NCBI GenBank assembly: GCA_000309945.1
Contig: CM001633.1
Coordinates: forward strand, 1,200,723-1,264,722
DNA: 64,000 nucleotides
Direction of reading: 5' to 3'
From: Leptolyngbyaceae cyanobacterium JSC-12
Lineage (GTDB): Bacteria; Cyanobacteriota; Cyanobacteriia; Leptolyngbyales; Leptolyngbyaceae
Part shown: piece after piece, positions 30,805 through 40,086 of the stretch
Layout of the letters: each line of letters starts with the position of its first letter
How positions within the stretch are numbered: the first letter of the stretch is position 1
Notes under the pieces: generated by a model
What the model was told of the DNA's origin: nothing
Seen by the model: only the letters and a program-made list of their open reading frames with translations
Database searches by the model: none
Translations under genes and position numbers: made by a program

Positions 30805-33378
30805 TCAAATGTTATTCCGGCAAGTCCATGGGGGTTGAGGCGAGTTCGGAGTTGCTTCGGTTGCTTCTGCCACTAAGTAGACGGAACCATCTGCTGCGAT
30901 CGTCCAGCCTTGAGCTTCGGTGATAGATAGTGGGGGAGATGAGGAAAGGGGAGGGAAGGAAGGAGAGGGAGGTAAAGTCCTGATACCCGAACCTCTGTAT
31001 CTTGCTCCATTTTCTTCATCATTCCAACGATCTTCTGGCTGCTGACTGCTGGCTGCTGACTGCTGGTTTCTCTCTGCTATCTCCTGCACCAAATCTGTCA
31101 ATGTTACTAAGGCGCGATCGCTACCAGAAAACCCTTCTTCCGGATTCGCAGGCAATCCACCCCGCCCGGTGATAATGAAGCGATTAGGTCGCTGGTTTGC
31201 TTGTGTATTAGGATTGCAGCTCTGAGCAATCTGGTTAGAGGGATCAACGAGATTAGTGGGTAAATTGATTAACCCTTGATTGGGGTCAATATTGAGGGAG
31301 TTGATGGTCACGGTGCCATTAATGCCGAATTGAGAACTGGCAGTAATGTCGCTAGAGGGGGTATCTTTGGGTTGAAACTTCAGTCCATAAATGCCTTTAG
31401 CAGTAATATCTACCCGTCCGCCGCTGCCTGCAAAGGCATTAGCGCGAATATCGCTGTTTTCCGATAAGACACCCACAATAAAGTCAGCATTAATCGTAAT
31501 GTTGCCGCCGCTGCTGTTGCCTCCAATTAAGCCTGCACTCGTGTTGATACGAGCATTCTGGCGGAGTTGCAATAATTGCGATTGAATCTGCAGGTTGCCG
31601 CCTTCCCCCAATAATGAGGTAGCCTCAAGAAAGGCGCGATCGCTCAACAGAATAGAATTTGCGACTAACTTTAAGTTTCCAGCATTTCCGGGACTCAACA
31701 CGCTCACACCTGCCCCATCTTCGGCAGTAAATGTTTGAGTCCTGATCTCCACATTGCCACCTTGCCGAATTCCATAGGCACTGATAGAGGTAGGTTTTCC
31801 CGTGCCTGGGGAGGTGCCACTAAGTTTGATTGAATCAGATGCCCAAACGGTAACATTGCCTCCACCTCCTAGTCCATTAGGACTGTTGCTATCAGCGGCA
31901 ATGCGTGCGCCTTGAGCCAGAGTTAGATTTTTAGTGATTAAGGTAAGGTTGCCTGCTTCACCGTTGCCCGTGACGCTGGCATTGGTAAAAATACCTGTAA
32001 CAAAGTCATTGTTGAGGGCAGGAGCGGGAATGGGTTGGCTGCCAATTAATTGCAGAGATTCGGAAGCATTGACAGTTAGGTTCCCGCCTTTGCCAAAGCC
32101 ATAGGTGGCATTGGAGATTTGACCATTGTTGCGGACGATCAGGTTGCGCGTGTTAATCGTTAATGCGCCGCTGTCGCCTCTAGAGCCAACAAACGTACCA
32201 TTAAACAAGCCACTTTCACTCAGATCCACCATTTCAGAGGCATTGATCATCAGATCGCCAGCACGACCAGACCCAGCAGTAGTGGTGGCAATGTATCCGC
32301 CTTCTCGTAAGGTTAATTTGCCAGTGTTGATAATAATATTGCCTGCTGTACCAGAACCCAGCGTCAGGGATGAAATGATGTTGCGCACGATGCCTGGATT
32401 CAAGGTTCCTCCGGTTAAGGCTTGAAGCACTTCCACATAGTCGCTTCTACCTACCAGTTCAAGTGAGTCGGTTGCGGTGACTGTAATGTTGCCACCAGGC
32501 TGAGCACCAAGATTAAAGGAAGCAATGCGGAAATTGTCTGTAAAGCGAAGCGATCGCCCGTGGATCTGAATCGTGCCGCCAGGATTACCACTCGCCTCTA
32601 CCTCTGCCCCAATCAAACGAATCGTACCAAAGGATTGCGCCCCGTAAGCCAGAGCAAATCCTTGGGGAATCGCAGTCAGGCGAACATTCCCCTGACCCTG
32701 TACACTTCCCAGTTCAACTCGCCCTGCAAACGCAGTCACGTTGCCATTTTCCAGGGTCAGATCACCACCTACCAATGCTAAGGTTCGTCCTGGTTGCACA
32801 GCTAAGCCTACGGGTTGAGCAACGCCTGGAATAGAAGCCCGCGATCGATTCACAATCGCACCTGGCACCTGCCCAAATTGCAGCCCAATTGGAACATTAA
32901 TAGATAGCAGTGAGGAAGCAGATAAATTTGTGGCACCGAACTCACTGTCATCAGGAAATTGGAAAGTGTTGGCAGTCGTTGCCAGAAACGAGCCGCCCAT
33001 GCTGAGTTGGGCGTTTGCCCCAAAAACAATGCCATTCGGGTTAAGGAAAAACAGGTTCGCTGTGCCATTTGCCCGAATTAACCCATCAATGTTGGAAACC
33101 GAGTTTCCGGTAACACGAGTCAAAATAATTTGAATTTGCGGCGCGTTATTGAACCAGGCAACCCCACCTGTAGGCACGGAAAAGTCACGAAAGCTATGAA
33201 ATAAGTTGTTGCCCCGTATGGTGCCGCCGTCAATTACACAAACGGTACAGCCTGGAGTAACGCTGGAATTCACTGGGAGCGTGGTATCCGGAGTGATTTG
33301 CGCGATCGCAAAAGTCGGGTGGACTACAAAGCTAGCAACGCCACTGATCGCCCATATCCAGGAAGCCAAACATCTCAT
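30805..33378 (-). CDS. Secreted filamentous-haemagglutinin-type (TPS) exoprotein
   Basis: An 857-residue protein with a Sec signal (ending FAIAQ near residue 27). It has the TPS/haemagglutination N-domain: GGTIRGNNLFHSFRDFSVPT, RVTGNSVSNIDGLIRANGTA, NLFFLNPNGIVFGANAQLSM, the NPNGI motif included. Residues ~240-680 are beta-helix repeats (GNITINA-type). The tail carries a low-complexity Ser/Gln/Pro stretch and ends ...PWTCRNN. TPS exoproteins are exported through an outer-membrane TpsB pore; no tpsB lies next to it. Likely surface adhesin. An IS1-type element sits 114 bp upstream of the start. Confidence 0.9.
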   Translation of the reverse strand: MRCLASWIWAISGVASFVVHPTFAIAQITPDTTLPVNSSVTPGCTVCVIDGGTIRGNNLFHSFRDFSVPTGGVAWFNNAPQIQIILTRVTGNSVSNIDGLIRANGTANLFFLNPNGIVFGANAQLSMGGSFLATTANTFQFPDDSEFGATNLSASSLLSINVPIGLQFGQVPGAIVNRSRASIPGVAQPVGLAVQPGRTLALVGGDLTLENGNVTAFAGRVELGSVQGQGNVRLTAIPQGFALAYGAQSFGTIRLIGAEVEASGNPGGTIQIHGRSLRFTDNFRIASFNLGAQPGGNITVTATDSLELVGRSDYVEVLQALTGGTLNPGIVRNIISSLTLGSGTAGNIIINTGKLTLREGGYIATTTAGSGRAGDLMINASEMVDLSESGLFNGTFVGSRGDSGALTINTRNLIVRNNGQISNATYGFGKGGNLTVNASESLQLIGSQPIPAPALNNDFVTGIFTNASVTGNGEAGNLTLITKNLTLAQGARIAADSNSPNGLGGGGNVTVWASDSIKLSGTSPGTGKPTSISAYGIRQGGNVEIRTQTFTAEDGAGVSVLSPGNAGNLKLVANSILLSDRAFLEATSLLGEGGNLQIQSQLLQLRQNARINTSAGLIGGNSSGGNITINADFIVGVLSENSDIRANAFAGSGGRVDITAKGIYGLKFQPKDTPSSDITASSQFGINGTVTINSLNIDPNQGLINLPTNLVDPSNQIAQSCNPNTQANQRPNRFIITGRGGLPANPEEGFSGSDRALVTLTDLVQEIAERNQQSAASSQQPEDRWNDEENGARYRGSGIRTLPPSPSFPPLSSSPPLSITEAQGWTIAADGSVYLVAEATEATPNSPQPPWTCRNNI
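31037..31064. repeat. Tandem 14-bp repeat inside the exoprotein gene
   Basis: GGCTGCTGACTGCT occurs twice in a row, in the Ser/Gln-rich part of the exoprotein (residues around NQQSAASSQQ). It belongs to the class of short tandem repeats with a CTGACT core. Confidence 0.8.
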
Positions 33379-33492: not shown

Positions 33493-34343
33493 GGTAATGT
33501 TCTAGACATGGGGCTAAGGATCAGGGTAAATAGAATTACCAAATCAGTTAGGGTAGTTCAAAACGACTACGATGGTACTCGAACCTGTACACTGTCCCAC
33601 TTGCAACAGCACTAACATCGTCAAACATGGCAAGACGGCTGAAGGCAAACAACGATATAAATGTCGGAATTCCGAATGCACTCGCCATAGCTTTGTTCTG
33701 GAGTATTCCTACCGAGGTTACTTACCTGATGTGAAACAACAGATTTGTGAGATGGCACTCAATGGCAGCGGAATTCGCGATACTGCACGAGTACTCAGAA
33801 TTAGTCCGACTACTGTCATTGAAGAATTAAAAAAAGATCGTCATCTTGAACAGATCAATCGATCATTGTTGGAACAACTGGAGCCAACAGCTGTGACCAT
33901 TGCCAAACACATCGAAGAAGCCGAAGCAGACGAGATGTGGAGCTTTGTCCGGTGTAAAAAACAGGAACGTTGGCTGTGGCATGCCATTGACCATCAGACG
34001 GGGCAGGTATTGGCGTATGTGCTGGCAGACCATCAAGACCAAGCGTTGGTCGAGTTAAAAGCATTGTTAGCACCGTTTGGGGTTCAAACCTTTTATACCG
34101 ATGGATGGGGAGCCTATGCTCGCTTGTTCGATGAAGACCAGCATGTGGTTGGTAAACAGAATACACAGAAAATTGAGCGCAAGCATTTGACGTTACGAAC
34201 CCGAATTAAGCGATTAGCTCGCAAGACGATCTGCTTCTCCAAGTCCGAACGGCTACATGACATTGTGATTGGGTTGTTCATCAATCGCTATGAATTTGGA
34301 CGGGTAGTTTGACCTTATCGATCCCCATGTCTAGCACACTACC
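33493..34343. mobile_element. 851-bp IS1-family insertion sequence
   Basis: The ends GGTAATGTTCTAGACATGGG and (right end inward) GGTAGTGTGCTAGACATGGG match at 18 of 20. A 9-bp direct duplication flanks it. One intact ORF covers most of the element. It is inserted upstream of the exoprotein start. Confidence 0.94.
33572..34312 (+). CDS. IS1-family transposase, single fused ORF
   Basis: A 246-residue protein combining the InsA zinc-binding part (CPTCNSTNIVKHGKTAEGKQ then C..SEC) and HTH with the InsB catalytic part. DDE-type residues are probably Asp in EADEMWSFVRCKKQERWLW, Asp in FYTDGWGAY, and Glu in KIERKHLTLRTRIKRLARKT. In enteric IS1 the two parts are joined by a -1 frameshift; here they are already one frame. 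The reading frame is uninterrupted. Confidence 0.92.
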   Translation: MVLEPVHCPTCNSTNIVKHGKTAEGKQRYKCRNSECTRHSFVLEYSYRGYLPDVKQQICEMALNGSGIRDTARVLRISPTTVIEELKKDRHLEQINRSLLEQLEPTAVTIAKHIEEAEADEMWSFVRCKKQERWLWHAIDHQTGQVLAYVLADHQDQALVELKALLAPFGVQTFYTDGWGAYARLFDEDQHVVGKQNTQKIERKHLTLRTRIKRLARKTICFSKSERLHDIVIGLFINRYEFGRVV

Positions 34344-35807: not shown

Positions 35808-36659
35808 TCAGCTTTGAACAGGCGGCAATACCACTTTCCGAGCCAACCCCAACCGTTTCAAGGCTGCAATCACCCACCAAGTCATATCAATTTCCCACCA
35901 TTTCCAACCAGCCTTAGCCACATTGGGATAGGCATGATGATTATTATGCCAGCCTTCACCATAGGTCAGTAACGCCGCCCACCAGAGATTGCGAGAATTA
36001 TCGGCTGGCTCATAGGTGCGATAACCAGTCATGTGAGTAGCGGAGTTAATCAACCAGGTACTATGCCACAGCAATACTGACCGGACAAACACTCCGTACA
36101 GGACAAATGACCAACCACCCAGTAAATACAACACAACTCCCAAGGGAATTTGCAATAGCAAGAAGTAGCGATCTAACCAGCGGTAGAAGACATCTCGGTC
36201 CAGGTCTGGAGCGTACTGACGATAAGCATTATGATCAAAAACATCCGCACGTTTGTAAAACAGCCACAGCATATGGCTCCACCAAAATCCTCGACGGGCG
36301 GAATACGGATCTTTATCAATATCTTCAGTGTAGAGGTGATGTTTACGATGCCCAGCTACCCAGAAGATTGGACCTCCCTGTAATGCCAACGAGCCAATGA
36401 CTGCGATCGCATATTCAAGTGGTTTGGGCACCTGGAAACTGCGATGCGTTAACAAGCGGTGATAGCCAAGGCAGATCCCGACACTACCAAACAACCAATG
36501 AAGGCACAAAGCAACTCCCAGCGCAGACCAGGAAAAAAACCACGGTGCCGATAGTGCAATCAGATGAAATGTGGCAAAAAACAAGATGTTTGTCCAGTTT
36601 AAGGCGAAGGACTGGGACTGACCAGCTTGCAGGTCAGTATCAAACCTATTAGAAGTCAT
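35808..36659 (-). CDS. desC: Acyl-lipid delta-9-type fatty-acid desaturase (DesC-like)
   Basis: A 283-residue membrane desaturase that puts a double bond into membrane-lipid acyl chains using ferredoxin and O2. The three histidine boxes are HRLLTH, HRKHH (in VAGHRKHHLYTEDIDKDPYS) and HNNHH (in GEGWHNNHHAYPN). Four hydrophobic segments surround them. The overall layout is that of cyanobacterial DesC. The divergent TetR-family gene begins 201 bp away across an intergenic region with two palindromes. Whether this is the general DesC1 or a secondary DesC2-type enzyme cannot be told. Confidence 0.88.
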   Translation of the reverse strand: MTSNRFDTDLQAGQSQSFALNWTNILFFATFHLIALSAPWFFSWSALGVALCLHWLFGSVGICLGYHRLLTHRSFQVPKPLEYAIAVIGSLALQGGPIFWVAGHRKHHLYTEDIDKDPYSARRGFWWSHMLWLFYKRADVFDHNAYRQYAPDLDRDVFYRWLDRYFLLLQIPLGVVLYLLGGWSFVLYGVFVRSVLLWHSTWLINSATHMTGYRTYEPADNSRNLWWAALLTYGEGWHNNHHAYPNVAKAGWKWWEIDMTWWVIAALKRLGLARKVVLPPVQS

Positions 36660-36789
36660 GAAAATCCTTTTGAGTCTTCAGTGTGGAACCAGTACCGAAT
36701 TATGCAGCACTGGCAGGCTCTCCCGTTGTAAGTTGGCAGGTCAAGAGAATAGCTCGTCGTTTGTAAAAGAACCAACTACAGTAGAAGAG

Positions 36790-36808
36790 ATGCAAGTAAC
36801 GCTTGCAT
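36790..36808. promoter_or_regulatory. Palindrome, candidate operator between desaturase and TetR genes
   Basis: ATGCAAG and CTTGCAT flank TAACG: perfect 7-bp arms, 5-bp spacer, 19 bp overall, the size of many TetR operators. It lies 131 bp upstream of the desaturase start and 53 bp upstream of the TetR start. Confidence 0.55.
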
Positions 36809-36839
36809 TCTTACTGTACCAACTTCTGCCTATTTCTGC

Positions 36840-36850
36840 AAGTAGTACTT
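36840..36850. promoter_or_regulatory. Second palindrome just upstream of the TetR gene
   Basis: AAGTAGTACTT is perfectly palindromic about its central G and ends 10 bases before the ATG, a position suited to self-repression. It shares AAGTA with the 19-bp palindrome. Confidence 0.45.
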
Positions 36851-36860
36851 ACATTTACTC

Positions 36861-38105
36861 ATGCCTCCACAAAATCCTACGCGACAAAAGCTCATCCACA
36901 CAGCGCTTGAGCTGTTTACGTCTCACGGTGTTACAGCAACAACCACTCGGCAAATTGCCGATTCTGCAGGCGTGAATGAAGTTACCTTATTCCGCCATTT
37001 TGGTAGCAAGCATGGCTTGCTTTTAGCTGTGATTGAGGAAGCTGCTGTCTTTACTCAATTAGGGCAAACCCTAGTTCAACAGGCAAATCAAACTGGAAAT
37101 ATATACCAAGCACTGAAGGATTATGCTACAGCCTGTTTGCAGGCTCTTGATCGAGTCCCTGAAGTGGTGCGATCAGTGGTGGGAGAGGCGGGCAGTTTTC
37201 CATCTGAAAATCGGGCGGCGTTGGGACGGGGTTTTAGTCAAGCAAATCACTATGTAGCTGAGTACTTTCAAACGGTGATTGAGCGGGGACAGTTGCATAC
37301 CCATCTCCCGGCTGAAAAACTTGCCAGCTTGTTGAATGGGATGTTGCTGGGCTACGCCGTGATTGAGTTTACAAGTGAATTTCACAATCTCTGGCAAGAC
37401 CGCAATGATTTTCTGGAAAATTTAGTGACGTTATTCCTGTTTGGGGCTGTCACACCTTCATCAGAGTTTGTGCTTGCGGCTTCCCCCCCCTCTGCGCCTC
37501 ATATCCTATCTGCTGAGGTTGAAACGGCGAACCTGGCTGATTTACCTGCTGACATAGTTCATTTAATTTTGCAGAAAGCTAAAAAAACTGGAGTTCAGGA
37601 GTATGCCTTAGCCTATGTGTTGTTTGGGGCTGGGCTAAGTTCTGTTGCAATTGTTCAGCTTATGCGATCGCAGTATGTTTGTGATCCGCATCAACAATTT
37701 TTGCGACTTGCCGATCCGCAGCAACGTCAGGTTCCTATCAACCAATGGATTATGGGTAAACGCTATGGCTCCTATACTCGTAATCCCCTCACTCAGTGGT
37801 TGAAAAGCCGCAAAGACAACCACCCTCACTTATTCTTGAACAAAGCAGGCGAACCGCTGTCTGAGGCAGAGCTTCAGCAATATTGGCAAGGCTGGACTGA
37901 AGGATTAACCACAATTGAGGGCAATCCTCTCGTGCTTGAACAGGCTCAGCAAACCTGGTGTATCGAAATGCTAATGAAGGGGATCAGTCTGGAGAGTTTA
38001 TCTATCCTGACTGGTTGGGAACAAGCCAAGCTGCAACCCTATGCAGACCGGGCAAGGAAGAAGATTGCCCTGGAAGAAGCCATGCGTTTAGATCAAAAAG
38101 TTTAG
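36861..38105 (+). CDS. TetR/AcrR regulator fused to a tyrosine-recombinase-like domain lacking catalytic residues
   Basis: A 414-residue protein, about twice the length of a normal TetR. Residues 8-55 are the HTH (LELFTSHGVTATTTRQIADS, AGVNEVTLFRHFGSKHGLLL) and the helical TetR ligand domain runs to ~190. Residues 228-405 follow the order of an integrase catalytic domain: YVLFGAGLSSVAIVQLMRSQ (where XerC has GLRxSEL), RQVPINQWI, HPHLFLNKAGEPLSEAEL, and QQTWCIEMLMKGISLESLSI followed by LTGWEQAKLQPYAD (where HTFATHLLE...LLGH...Y would be). Both Arg and the His residues are lost, so it should not recombine DNA. Divergent from the desaturase, it is the obvious candidate regulator of it. Confidence 0.75.
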   Translation: MPPQNPTRQKLIHTALELFTSHGVTATTTRQIADSAGVNEVTLFRHFGSKHGLLLAVIEEAAVFTQLGQTLVQQANQTGNIYQALKDYATACLQALDRVPEVVRSVVGEAGSFPSENRAALGRGFSQANHYVAEYFQTVIERGQLHTHLPAEKLASLLNGMLLGYAVIEFTSEFHNLWQDRNDFLENLVTLFLFGAVTPSSEFVLAASPPSAPHILSAEVETANLADLPADIVHLILQKAKKTGVQEYALAYVLFGAGLSSVAIVQLMRSQYVCDPHQQFLRLADPQQRQVPINQWIMGKRYGSYTRNPLTQWLKSRKDNHPHLFLNKAGEPLSEAELQQYWQGWTEGLTTIEGNPLVLEQAQQTWCIEMLMKGISLESLSILTGWEQAKLQPYADRARKKIALEEAMRLDQKV

Positions 38106-39534: not shown

Positions 39535-40086
39535 TGGACTCTCCTAACTGACCTGGCAGTGTGTAATTCAAACCCAAAAAATTTCCCTGACATGCCTCTT
39601 GTAAACAAGAACTTGTCGGGATAGAAGACTTCTATTTGCGGATAAAAACTTATGCGCTCTTGCAAACCATCTAGTGGCTAGAGGTCTTGCACATTAGAGG
39701 TTTTGCACAACGCTGAAAGCACCCTGCTTTGTATCCACTAGAGCGGAGCTTTATCTTGCACATCCTTGCGAACCATCACAACGCTGGATGCAAAAGACAA
39801 AAAGTCCAGTGCAGGAGTTCTACCTATCGTAGCTTTACTGCGATTAGGAAACGATCTCCGGACGAACAGTACCATTTATATCTAACCTACTTGGTTTCAC
39901 AAGAAGGCTCAATAAAAACTTGATAAGGGGAAAACCCAAATTTGCTAGGAAATGATAAAGATGGCAAATAGCGATCGAAGTCACACACATACCTGGGAAA
40001 AATCACGTTGGGTAGAACGGTTCAATCACGCGGCGATCGCAGCAATCCCTGGATACTAAAAGTGTCGAGTTACCCTATATCCAGCT
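39535..40086. other. Divergent intergenic region with clustered short direct repeats
   Basis: Upstream of the invertase gene. A 16-bp unit, TAGAGGTCTTGCACAT then TAGAGGTTTTGCACAA, is repeated in tandem at 39679-39710. CTTGCRAACCATC occurs at 39659-39671 and 39765-39777, and CACAACGCTG at 39706-39715 and 39777-39786. No ORF here looks coding. The repeats may be regulator binding sites or remains of a small duplication. Confidence 0.65.

Follow-up and report, generated by a model that had tools for sequence, protein, structure and literature searches.

A divergent gene pair in a stretch of 64,000 nucleotides from Leptolyngbyaceae cyanobacterium JSC-12 (contig CM001633.1, positions 1,200,723 to 1,264,722; the whole stretch is called the window below) encodes a fatty-acid desaturase and a 414-residue regulator, in which a TetR half is fused to a tyrosine-recombinase fold that has lost its cutting residues. 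Judging from the sequence, the regulator is very probably a dedicated local switch for the desaturase. The whole reading that we favour, and hold to be probable with less assurance, is that of a self-controlling repressor switch devoted to a single desaturase gene, apparently of the DesC2/DesF branch, with the C-terminal domain making binding cooperative. An earlier note on this DNA had suggested that the protein may control membrane-lipid unsaturation; control of the desaturase is now strongly supported, because the two genes are linked in 81 of 81 distinct fusion loci and because the pair of candidate operators between them is missing near 25 relatives of the desaturase that lack the regulator. 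The two genes are separated by 201 base pairs (bp), and the elements of the locus are as follows.

35808 to 36659, minus strand: gene for a delta-9-type acyl-lipid desaturase of 283 amino acids, apparently of the DesC2/DesF branch and the presumed target (PF00487, 6e-20; histidine boxes)
36778 to 36783, minus strand: -10-like hexamer TACTGT of the putative desaturase promoter, conserved in its placement to the left of operator 1
36791 to 36807, no strand assigned: candidate operator 1, TGCAAGTAACGCTTGCA, a conserved, repeated 17-bp site
36812 to 36821, plus strand: TAnnnTAnCA element (here TACTGTACCA), conserved between the operators and read as the -10 element of the regulator
36837 to 36853, no strand assigned: candidate operator 2, TGCAAGTAGTACTTACA, 46 bp from operator 1 and starting 24 bp before the regulator start codon
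36861 to 38105, plus strand: gene for the 414-residue fusion of TetR and a dead recombinase domain (open reading frame (ORF), domain matches and full-length homologues)

Linkage to the desaturase and the candidate operators

The distribution of the regulator was followed in 386 sampled genomes of the phylum, in which a match at an E-value of 1e-30 or better was taken as a family member. Such a member was found in 44 genomes; in 41 of them the C-terminal domain is present within the same long ORF as TetR, and in three (G011, G177 and G332) the protein is TetR only. We examined 52 loci, then 11 more fusions and then those of two further orders, which gave 81 distinct proteins (the plasmid copy described below is not counted). 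In all 81 loci the same desaturase gene lies divergently upstream of the fusion gene, with a gap of 89–673 bp; three were counted as linked despite a defect, the desaturase being in two pieces (L048), reaching the end of the stretch (L050) or having a stop within the match (L111). Duplicate proteins were set aside (L028, L051, L176 and L177, equal to L010, L015, L005 and L007, respectively), of which L176 and L177 remain in the 83 fusion rows used for spacing and -10-like elements. Also set aside were the split or truncated frames L197/L202, L200/L203 and L201, all three with two sites, the broken frame L174/L175, again with two sites, and a Streptomyces row (L025) whose match covers residues 4–58, that is, the TetR part only.

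Two perfect palindromes had been reported between the genes, at 36790–36808 and 36840–36850. Both are cores of one conserved 17-bp site that is present twice, 46 bp apart. Their perfection did not hold: the first has 7-bp arms around five bases (14 of 19 positions symmetric) and the second is symmetric apart from its centre base. We defined a site pair as at least two sites that score at least 11 of 15 to TGCAAGTAnnACTTGCA and lie 40–90 bp apart, with 12 as the stricter threshold. The intergenic region contains such a pair in 81 of the 81 fusion loci at threshold 11 and in 80 of them at threshold 12, compared to 3 and 0, respectively, of the 2430 shuffled regions scored at each threshold (30 shuffles per region). 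In the source genome (one contig, 5.53 Mb), the exact pattern TGCAAGTRNYRCTTRCA occurs only at the two operator sites and there is no second matching pair; a site with one mismatch elsewhere (L125) falls inside an ORF. The wider pattern WGCAAGYRNYRCTTRCW was matched in 42 of the 44 genomes with a family member. A wider regulon was considered in these 44 genomes and rejected, as seven of the ten off-locus sites lie inside ORFs of at least 80 amino acids and no common gene was seen by eye.

Desaturases at least 60% identical to that of the window were present in 63 of the 386 genomes, and 44 of these have the regulator. Of the 25 regulator-free desaturase loci that served as a control set, 20 come from the remaining 19 genomes and five are second copies in genomes carrying the module. 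None of the 25 loci gave a regulator match, and none has a site pair near the desaturase start; the only sites present at threshold 12 lie 2.3 kb upstream (one, L131), 2.6 kb upstream (two, L134) or inside the desaturase (one, L145). In the desaturase tree, 24 of the 25 regulator-free loci form one clade (support 0.95), which is nested among the fusion-linked genes by weaker nodes (0.42–0.87).

The geometry of the intergenic region is conserved as well. A TACAGT- or TTAAAG-like element lies at most 30 bp to the left of operator 1 in 62 of the 83 fusion rows; in shuffled flanks the same loose pattern is expected in 10.2. On the regulator side, TAnCA starts 20 bp before operator 2 in 65 rows and 21 bp before it in 11 (76 of 83 rows; 1.1 in shuffled spacers). 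The seven other rows comprise two with TAACA one base nearer to operator 2 (L185 and L187), four with TAACC or TAACT at 20 bp (L024, L114, L115 and L119) and L112, which has nothing similar. The operators are 46 bp apart in 37 rows, 47 bp in 29 and 48 bp in seven, and 44, 45, 51, 52, 53, 55, 58 or 85 bp in the remaining ten; this variation lies mostly between operator 1 and TAnnnTAnCA, and the distance to operator 2 is nearly fixed. Going by geometry only, operator 1 would cover the -35 regions of both divergent promoters, and operator 2 would cover the start of the regulator transcript, ∼20 bp past the -10-like element of the regulator. In the loci with 46-bp spacing we also observed that conservation hardly drops from the -10-like hexamer to the bases A, C and A directly behind it; a -10 element alone leaves this unexplained, and it could reflect an extra protein contact.

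The TetR half and the recombinase-fold domain

The regulator is composed of the following parts (pLDDT, predicted local distance difference test score).

36891 to 37031, plus strand: TetR_N helix-turn-helix, residues 11–57 (PF00440, 2e-15, 56.7 bits, cut-off 24)
37032 to 37445, plus strand: TetR ligand and dimer domain, residues 58–195 (TetR_C_7, 2e-5, at residues 84–192; structure matches)
37446 to 37538, plus strand: variable linker, residues 196–226 (pLDDT below 50 at residues 196–222; mean pairwise identity 0.18)
37539 to 38102, plus strand: Xer-like tyrosine-recombinase catalytic fold without the catalytic set, residues 227–414 (profile, model and residue counts)
37740 to 37817, plus strand: family signature NQWIMGKRYGSYxxNPL...RKD, residues 294–319 (many near-invariant columns in 61 fusions)

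The N-terminal half had been described as a normal TetR, and the domain matches agree with this. TetR_N was matched in 23 of 23 aligned family members and TetR_C_7 (25.0 bits in the window protein, cut-off 22) in 11 of the 23. Moreover, TetR structures match residues 1–200 of the regulator model, in which the ligand and dimer domain is all-helical; its fold neighbours include FadR, FasR and EthR. After L025, the 23rd homologue row, had been dropped, 22 further full-length homologues remained (47–84% identity), every one in cyanobacterial records. The nearest named relative found, with 84% identity in the regulator protein, is L003 from a Leptolyngbyaceae metagenome-assembled genome. Among 61 distinct fusions the helix-turn-helix (residues 5–57) is the most conserved part, with a mean pairwise identity of 0.76. 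The C-terminal domain reaches 0.57 (0.60 in its last helix), and as this equals the value for the TetR ligand domain, also 0.57, the domain appears to be under constraint.

That the C-terminal half has a tyrosine-recombinase fold was confirmed by profile and by model. PF00589 (Phage_integrase) matches residues 233–389 at 4.4e-5 with 23.8 bits, which is below the gathering score of 27.1, and it was matched at an E-value of 0.01 or better in 20 of the 23 aligned members. A profile built from 23 C-terminal domains retrieved the archaeal XerA (4a8e) at an E-value of 2.3e-7. Structure prediction, which the earlier note had proposed as a check, gave a confident recombinase fold (AlphaFold model of the domain alone, mean pLDDT 94.5). 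The best structural match of this model is XerA (5hxy; Z 20.6, root-mean-square deviation 3.6, 171 residues), followed by XerH (Z 17.3), lambda Int and Cre, with the repressors SroF (Z 13.0) and MrpR/YopR (Z 11.8–12.3) ranking lower. The N-terminal core-binding domain of tyrosine recombinases is not present; TetR and the low-confidence linker are in its place.

The catalytic positions were placed via the XerA profile alignment (with the placement of the catalytic Lys uncertain). The window protein has S260 at the Arg I position, Q363 at Arg II, E360 at the first His and W386 at the His/Trp position, and it keeps the Tyr (Y394); Trp also serves at the His/Trp position in Cre, according to Table 3 of PMC10516654. 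The claimed loss of the catalytic Arg and His residues is thus true of this protein, and it is true of the family. Of the 61 distinct fusions, 50 have Ser and one has Arg at Arg I; 50 have Gln and seven have Arg at Arg II; at the first His, 27 have Glu, 16 have Ala and none has His; at the His/Trp position, 24 have Trp, 22 have Cys and none has His; and 57 keep the Tyr. On these counts a recombinase that is still active was rejected, and on sequence and model the C-terminal part is, family-wide, a recombinase fold without cutting residues. Beside the lost positions, Q361, T365 and W366 are invariant in 61 of 61 fusions, and the signature at residues 294–319 includes nine inserted positions, at which the profile alignment shows gap columns for XerA. 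A fusion from Kastovskya (L015, 3980–5248) keeps both Arg positions, the Trp and the Tyr and has Ser at the first His; by sequence it is perhaps the closest to the ancestral recombinase.

All 41 close matches to the C-terminal domain in the 386 genomes lie inside such a fusion. At an E-value of 1e-5 the search for a stand-alone domain in these genomes gave, besides the 41 fusions, six weak matches in other classes (ORFs of 294–338 amino acids); of the four of these that were fetched, one (L121) was translated and reads as an ordinary Xer-like recombinase. PHROGs gave no phage relatives of the domain, phage records gave a single match at an E-value of 0.8, and 21 pattern matches from IMG/VR were discarded with none confirmed. 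The missing phage relatives do not prove a cellular origin. Cysteine-based sensing found no support among the 61 fusions: Cys occurs in more than 15 of them at three columns and is invariant at none.

The proposed switch and competing explanations

In the mechanism that we propose, the TetR half would bind the two copies of the operator between the genes. Occupation of operator 1 should silence both genes, because the site is placed where both -35 regions would be, and occupation of operator 2 would give tighter self-repression of the regulator. A small hydrophobic ligand in the TetR pocket would cause release from the DNA; this is most likely an acyl chain, given the fold neighbours FadR and FasR and the target gene. 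The most likely role of the C-terminal domain would be to make binding cooperative, either by joining the two operator-bound dimers through four domains, as recombinase tetramers do, or by adding a DNA contact between them. That the dead domain couples dimers or clamps DNA is a suggestion that we make tentatively. A more specific form of it, in which four C-terminal domains, two per TetR dimer, pack via the C-terminal helix across the regulator promoter as a recombinase-like synapse, may grip TAnnnTAnCA and act as a cooperative lock, is rather doubtful.

Natural variants bear on the role of the domain. We found nine distinct TetR-only orthologues, and the broken-frame L174, all of which retain the divergent desaturase. 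Six of the nine, all from genus g56, have a single site, as compared to none of the 81 fusions at the same threshold. In g56 a TAnCG element lies 20 bp before the remaining site, as expected of operator 2. In the TetR tree (FastTree) the TetR-only pair of genus g7 (L107 and L199) branches from within the fusions, which points to a probable loss of the domain in this pair while its two sites stayed; the placement of the other TetR-only clade (g56) is weakly supported (0.54–0.60). Site loss was seen only where the C-terminal domain is absent, which fits, but does not prove, the idea that the domain helps in using the pair.

Several observations weigh against this reading. Both sites are present in three of the nine distinct TetR-only orthologues (L107, L199 and L172) and in the broken L174, and therefore the operator pair does not require the C-terminal domain. 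The one-site cases are confined to genus g56 and thus probably go back to a single event. No helical phasing is seen in the operator spacing of the 83 fusion rows, a finding that speaks against a short, rigid loop. At threshold 12 one fusion is left with a single site, and the fusion of L112 combines a site spacing of 85 bp with no -10-like element. Furthermore, a sigma-70 consensus scan found no promoter in the intergenic region; the promoter assignment therefore rests on conservation and geometry, and the -35 regions are placed by geometry.

The explanation that competes most directly is a plain TetR autorepressor, whose C-terminal domain would be an appendage for stability or solubility outside DNA binding and whose operator pair would serve two promoters. 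The nearly fixed distance between operator 2 and the -10-like element and the variable side of operator 1 are what promoter geometry alone predicts, and TetR-only orthologues do occur beside the same desaturase. Against it, the domain is as conserved as the TetR ligand domain, and of the 44 genomes that have a family member 41 carry it; we consider the explanation rather improbable. Somewhat less probable still is that the domain is a sensor, with the emptied active-site cleft binding a ligand (lipid, nucleotide or nucleic acid) through which the TetR half would be regulated. The invariant Q361, T365 and W366 and the strongly conserved insertion relative to XerA look like a new binding surface. 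Yet a ligand-domain fold is already present within the TetR half itself, at the same desaturase two TetR-only groups (genus g7, and g56 with its relatives) manage without the domain, and the recombinase C-terminal helix that is kept fits protein contacts equally.

Two further explanations concern what the protein does at the DNA. TetR family members are mostly repressors, and operator 1 appears, from geometry only, to overlap both -35 regions; an activator of the desaturase is thus quite unlikely, although an activator, ChlR, controls the related desF of Synechococcus 7002 (PMC4500134, in the portion available). That the C-terminal domain still processes DNA, for example between the operators, by means of the retained tyrosine is improbable in the extreme. 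The position of Y394 is Tyr in 57 of 61 fusions and L015 keeps both Arg positions, the Trp and the Tyr, but Arg I is retained in only 1 of 61, Arg II in 7 and the first His in none. Moreover, MrpR keeps its Tyr and is nevertheless described as lacking recombinase activity (available text of PMC10516654).

Known relatives, surroundings and meaning

By its parts the architecture is a variant of known ones, a TetR regulator and a domesticated recombinase fold; the literature matches listed describe neither the fusion nor a TetR regulator for this desaturase. The helix-turn-helix, the ligand-domain fold and the link to lipid genes are common with FadR (Bacillus/Thermus) and FasR (Mycobacterium), which are among the best Foldseek matches of the N-terminal half (5gpc and 6o6p, 14–23% identity). 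FadR and FasR have an acyl ligand, as we infer for our regulator. To our knowledge, neither of these acyl-responsive regulators has a recombinase-fold domain. With XerA and XerH the protein has the catalytic fold in common; it differs from them in having no core-binding domain, in the lost catalytic set, in the nine-position insertion and in the fused TetR. As in MrpR/YopR (SPbeta) and SroF (phi3T), with fold Z-scores of 11.8–13.0, a recombinase fold is part of a repressor. MrpR offers a precedent for the proposed switch: according to the available part of PMC10516654, it is a recombinase-fold protein without recombinase activity that acts as a DNA-binding repressor, with Val/Ser in place of Arg I and with Glu and Tyr kept, much as in the regulator. 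MrpR is, in contrast, a phage gene product with the whole recombinase architecture, including its own core-binding domain, and with no TetR part, so that only the fold of the C-terminal domain is common.

The desaturase is one of five PF00487 matches in the source genome. Its histidine boxes, GICLGYHRLLTHRSF, WVAGHRKHHLYTED and YGEGWHNNHHAYPNVAKAGWKWWE, were compared to clade 1 in Table 3 of PMC2593844, a clade that, as listed there, includes the sn-2-specific desaturase of Nostoc SO-36. Box 3 agrees with the table; box 1 carries HRSF instead of HKSF, and box 2 a Leu in place of the tabulated Ala. With these two small departures the boxes are close to those of clade 1, and by this comparison of boxes the enzyme resembles the branch of DesC2 (Nostoc SO-36) and DesF (Synechococcus 7002).

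The neighbours of the 25 regulator-free desaturases (L126–L150), assigned by eye, were hemN-like genes upstream in 11, hemF-like in three, BchE-like in three, psbA in two and others in six. One example of each was scanned, which confirmed HemN, oxygen-dependent coproporphyrinogen oxidase, BchE and PsbA, and found AcsF beside one hemF; a supposed heme oxygenase beside hemN in L128 gave no NCBIfam match at 1e-20, so its label is unconfirmed. The position of 19 of the 25 beside hemN-, hemF-, bchE- or psbA-like genes suggests different control systems for one and the same desaturase branch, and such neighbours point to low oxygen at least as much as to low temperature. They recall the desF gene of Synechococcus 7002, which, in the available part of PMC4500134, lies in a low-oxygen-type operon controlled by ChlR and is required for microoxic growth. 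The window locus, in contrast, is linked to the TetR fusion, and none of the hemN, ho2 or acsF neighbours of that operon was found among its flanking genes examined (besides the regulator, an NmrA-like gene, an IS1-type transposase and a GH100 invertase). A list of Anabaena 7120 genes whose transcripts are lower in a sigE mutant following nitrogen deprivation includes all4991, a delta-9 gene (PMC4390870, in the part available).

A full-length copy of the fusion, 63% identical, is carried by a 29-kb plasmid, typed as mobilizable, of Gloeothece citriformis PCC 7424. It is annotated as a TetR/AcrR family regulator, with the desaturase divergent and two sites 47 bp apart. This plasmid module (L204, NC_011730.1 13897–25135) adjoins a light-harvesting-like gene, and a gene for an orange carotenoid protein N-terminal domain lies one further. 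Near the window locus, the IS1-type transposase ORF at 33572–34312 (DDE_Tnp_IS1, 3.7e-43) has its InsA-like and DDE parts in one frame, and an 857-residue ORF at 30805–33378 on the minus strand resembles a filamentous-haemagglutinin-type surface protein, by the look of its translation alone. Between 33000 and 41000 of the window no Rfam family reached its gathering score, and the single tandem repeat found was a short array at 39679–39709, distant from the locus.

Thus, the regulator would be a widespread cyanobacterial regulator of a membrane-lipid desaturase, with predicted DNA sites and a single-locus regulon that are precise enough for a bench test. It also appears to be a clear case of a recombinase domain domesticated within a one-component regulator, and since orthologues without the domain, with one or two sites left, occur in nature, the job of the domain is directly testable. 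Finally, the same desaturase branch stands beside this switch in some genomes and beside low-oxygen-type genes in others, which bears on how acyl unsaturation may be controlled when oxygen is scarce.

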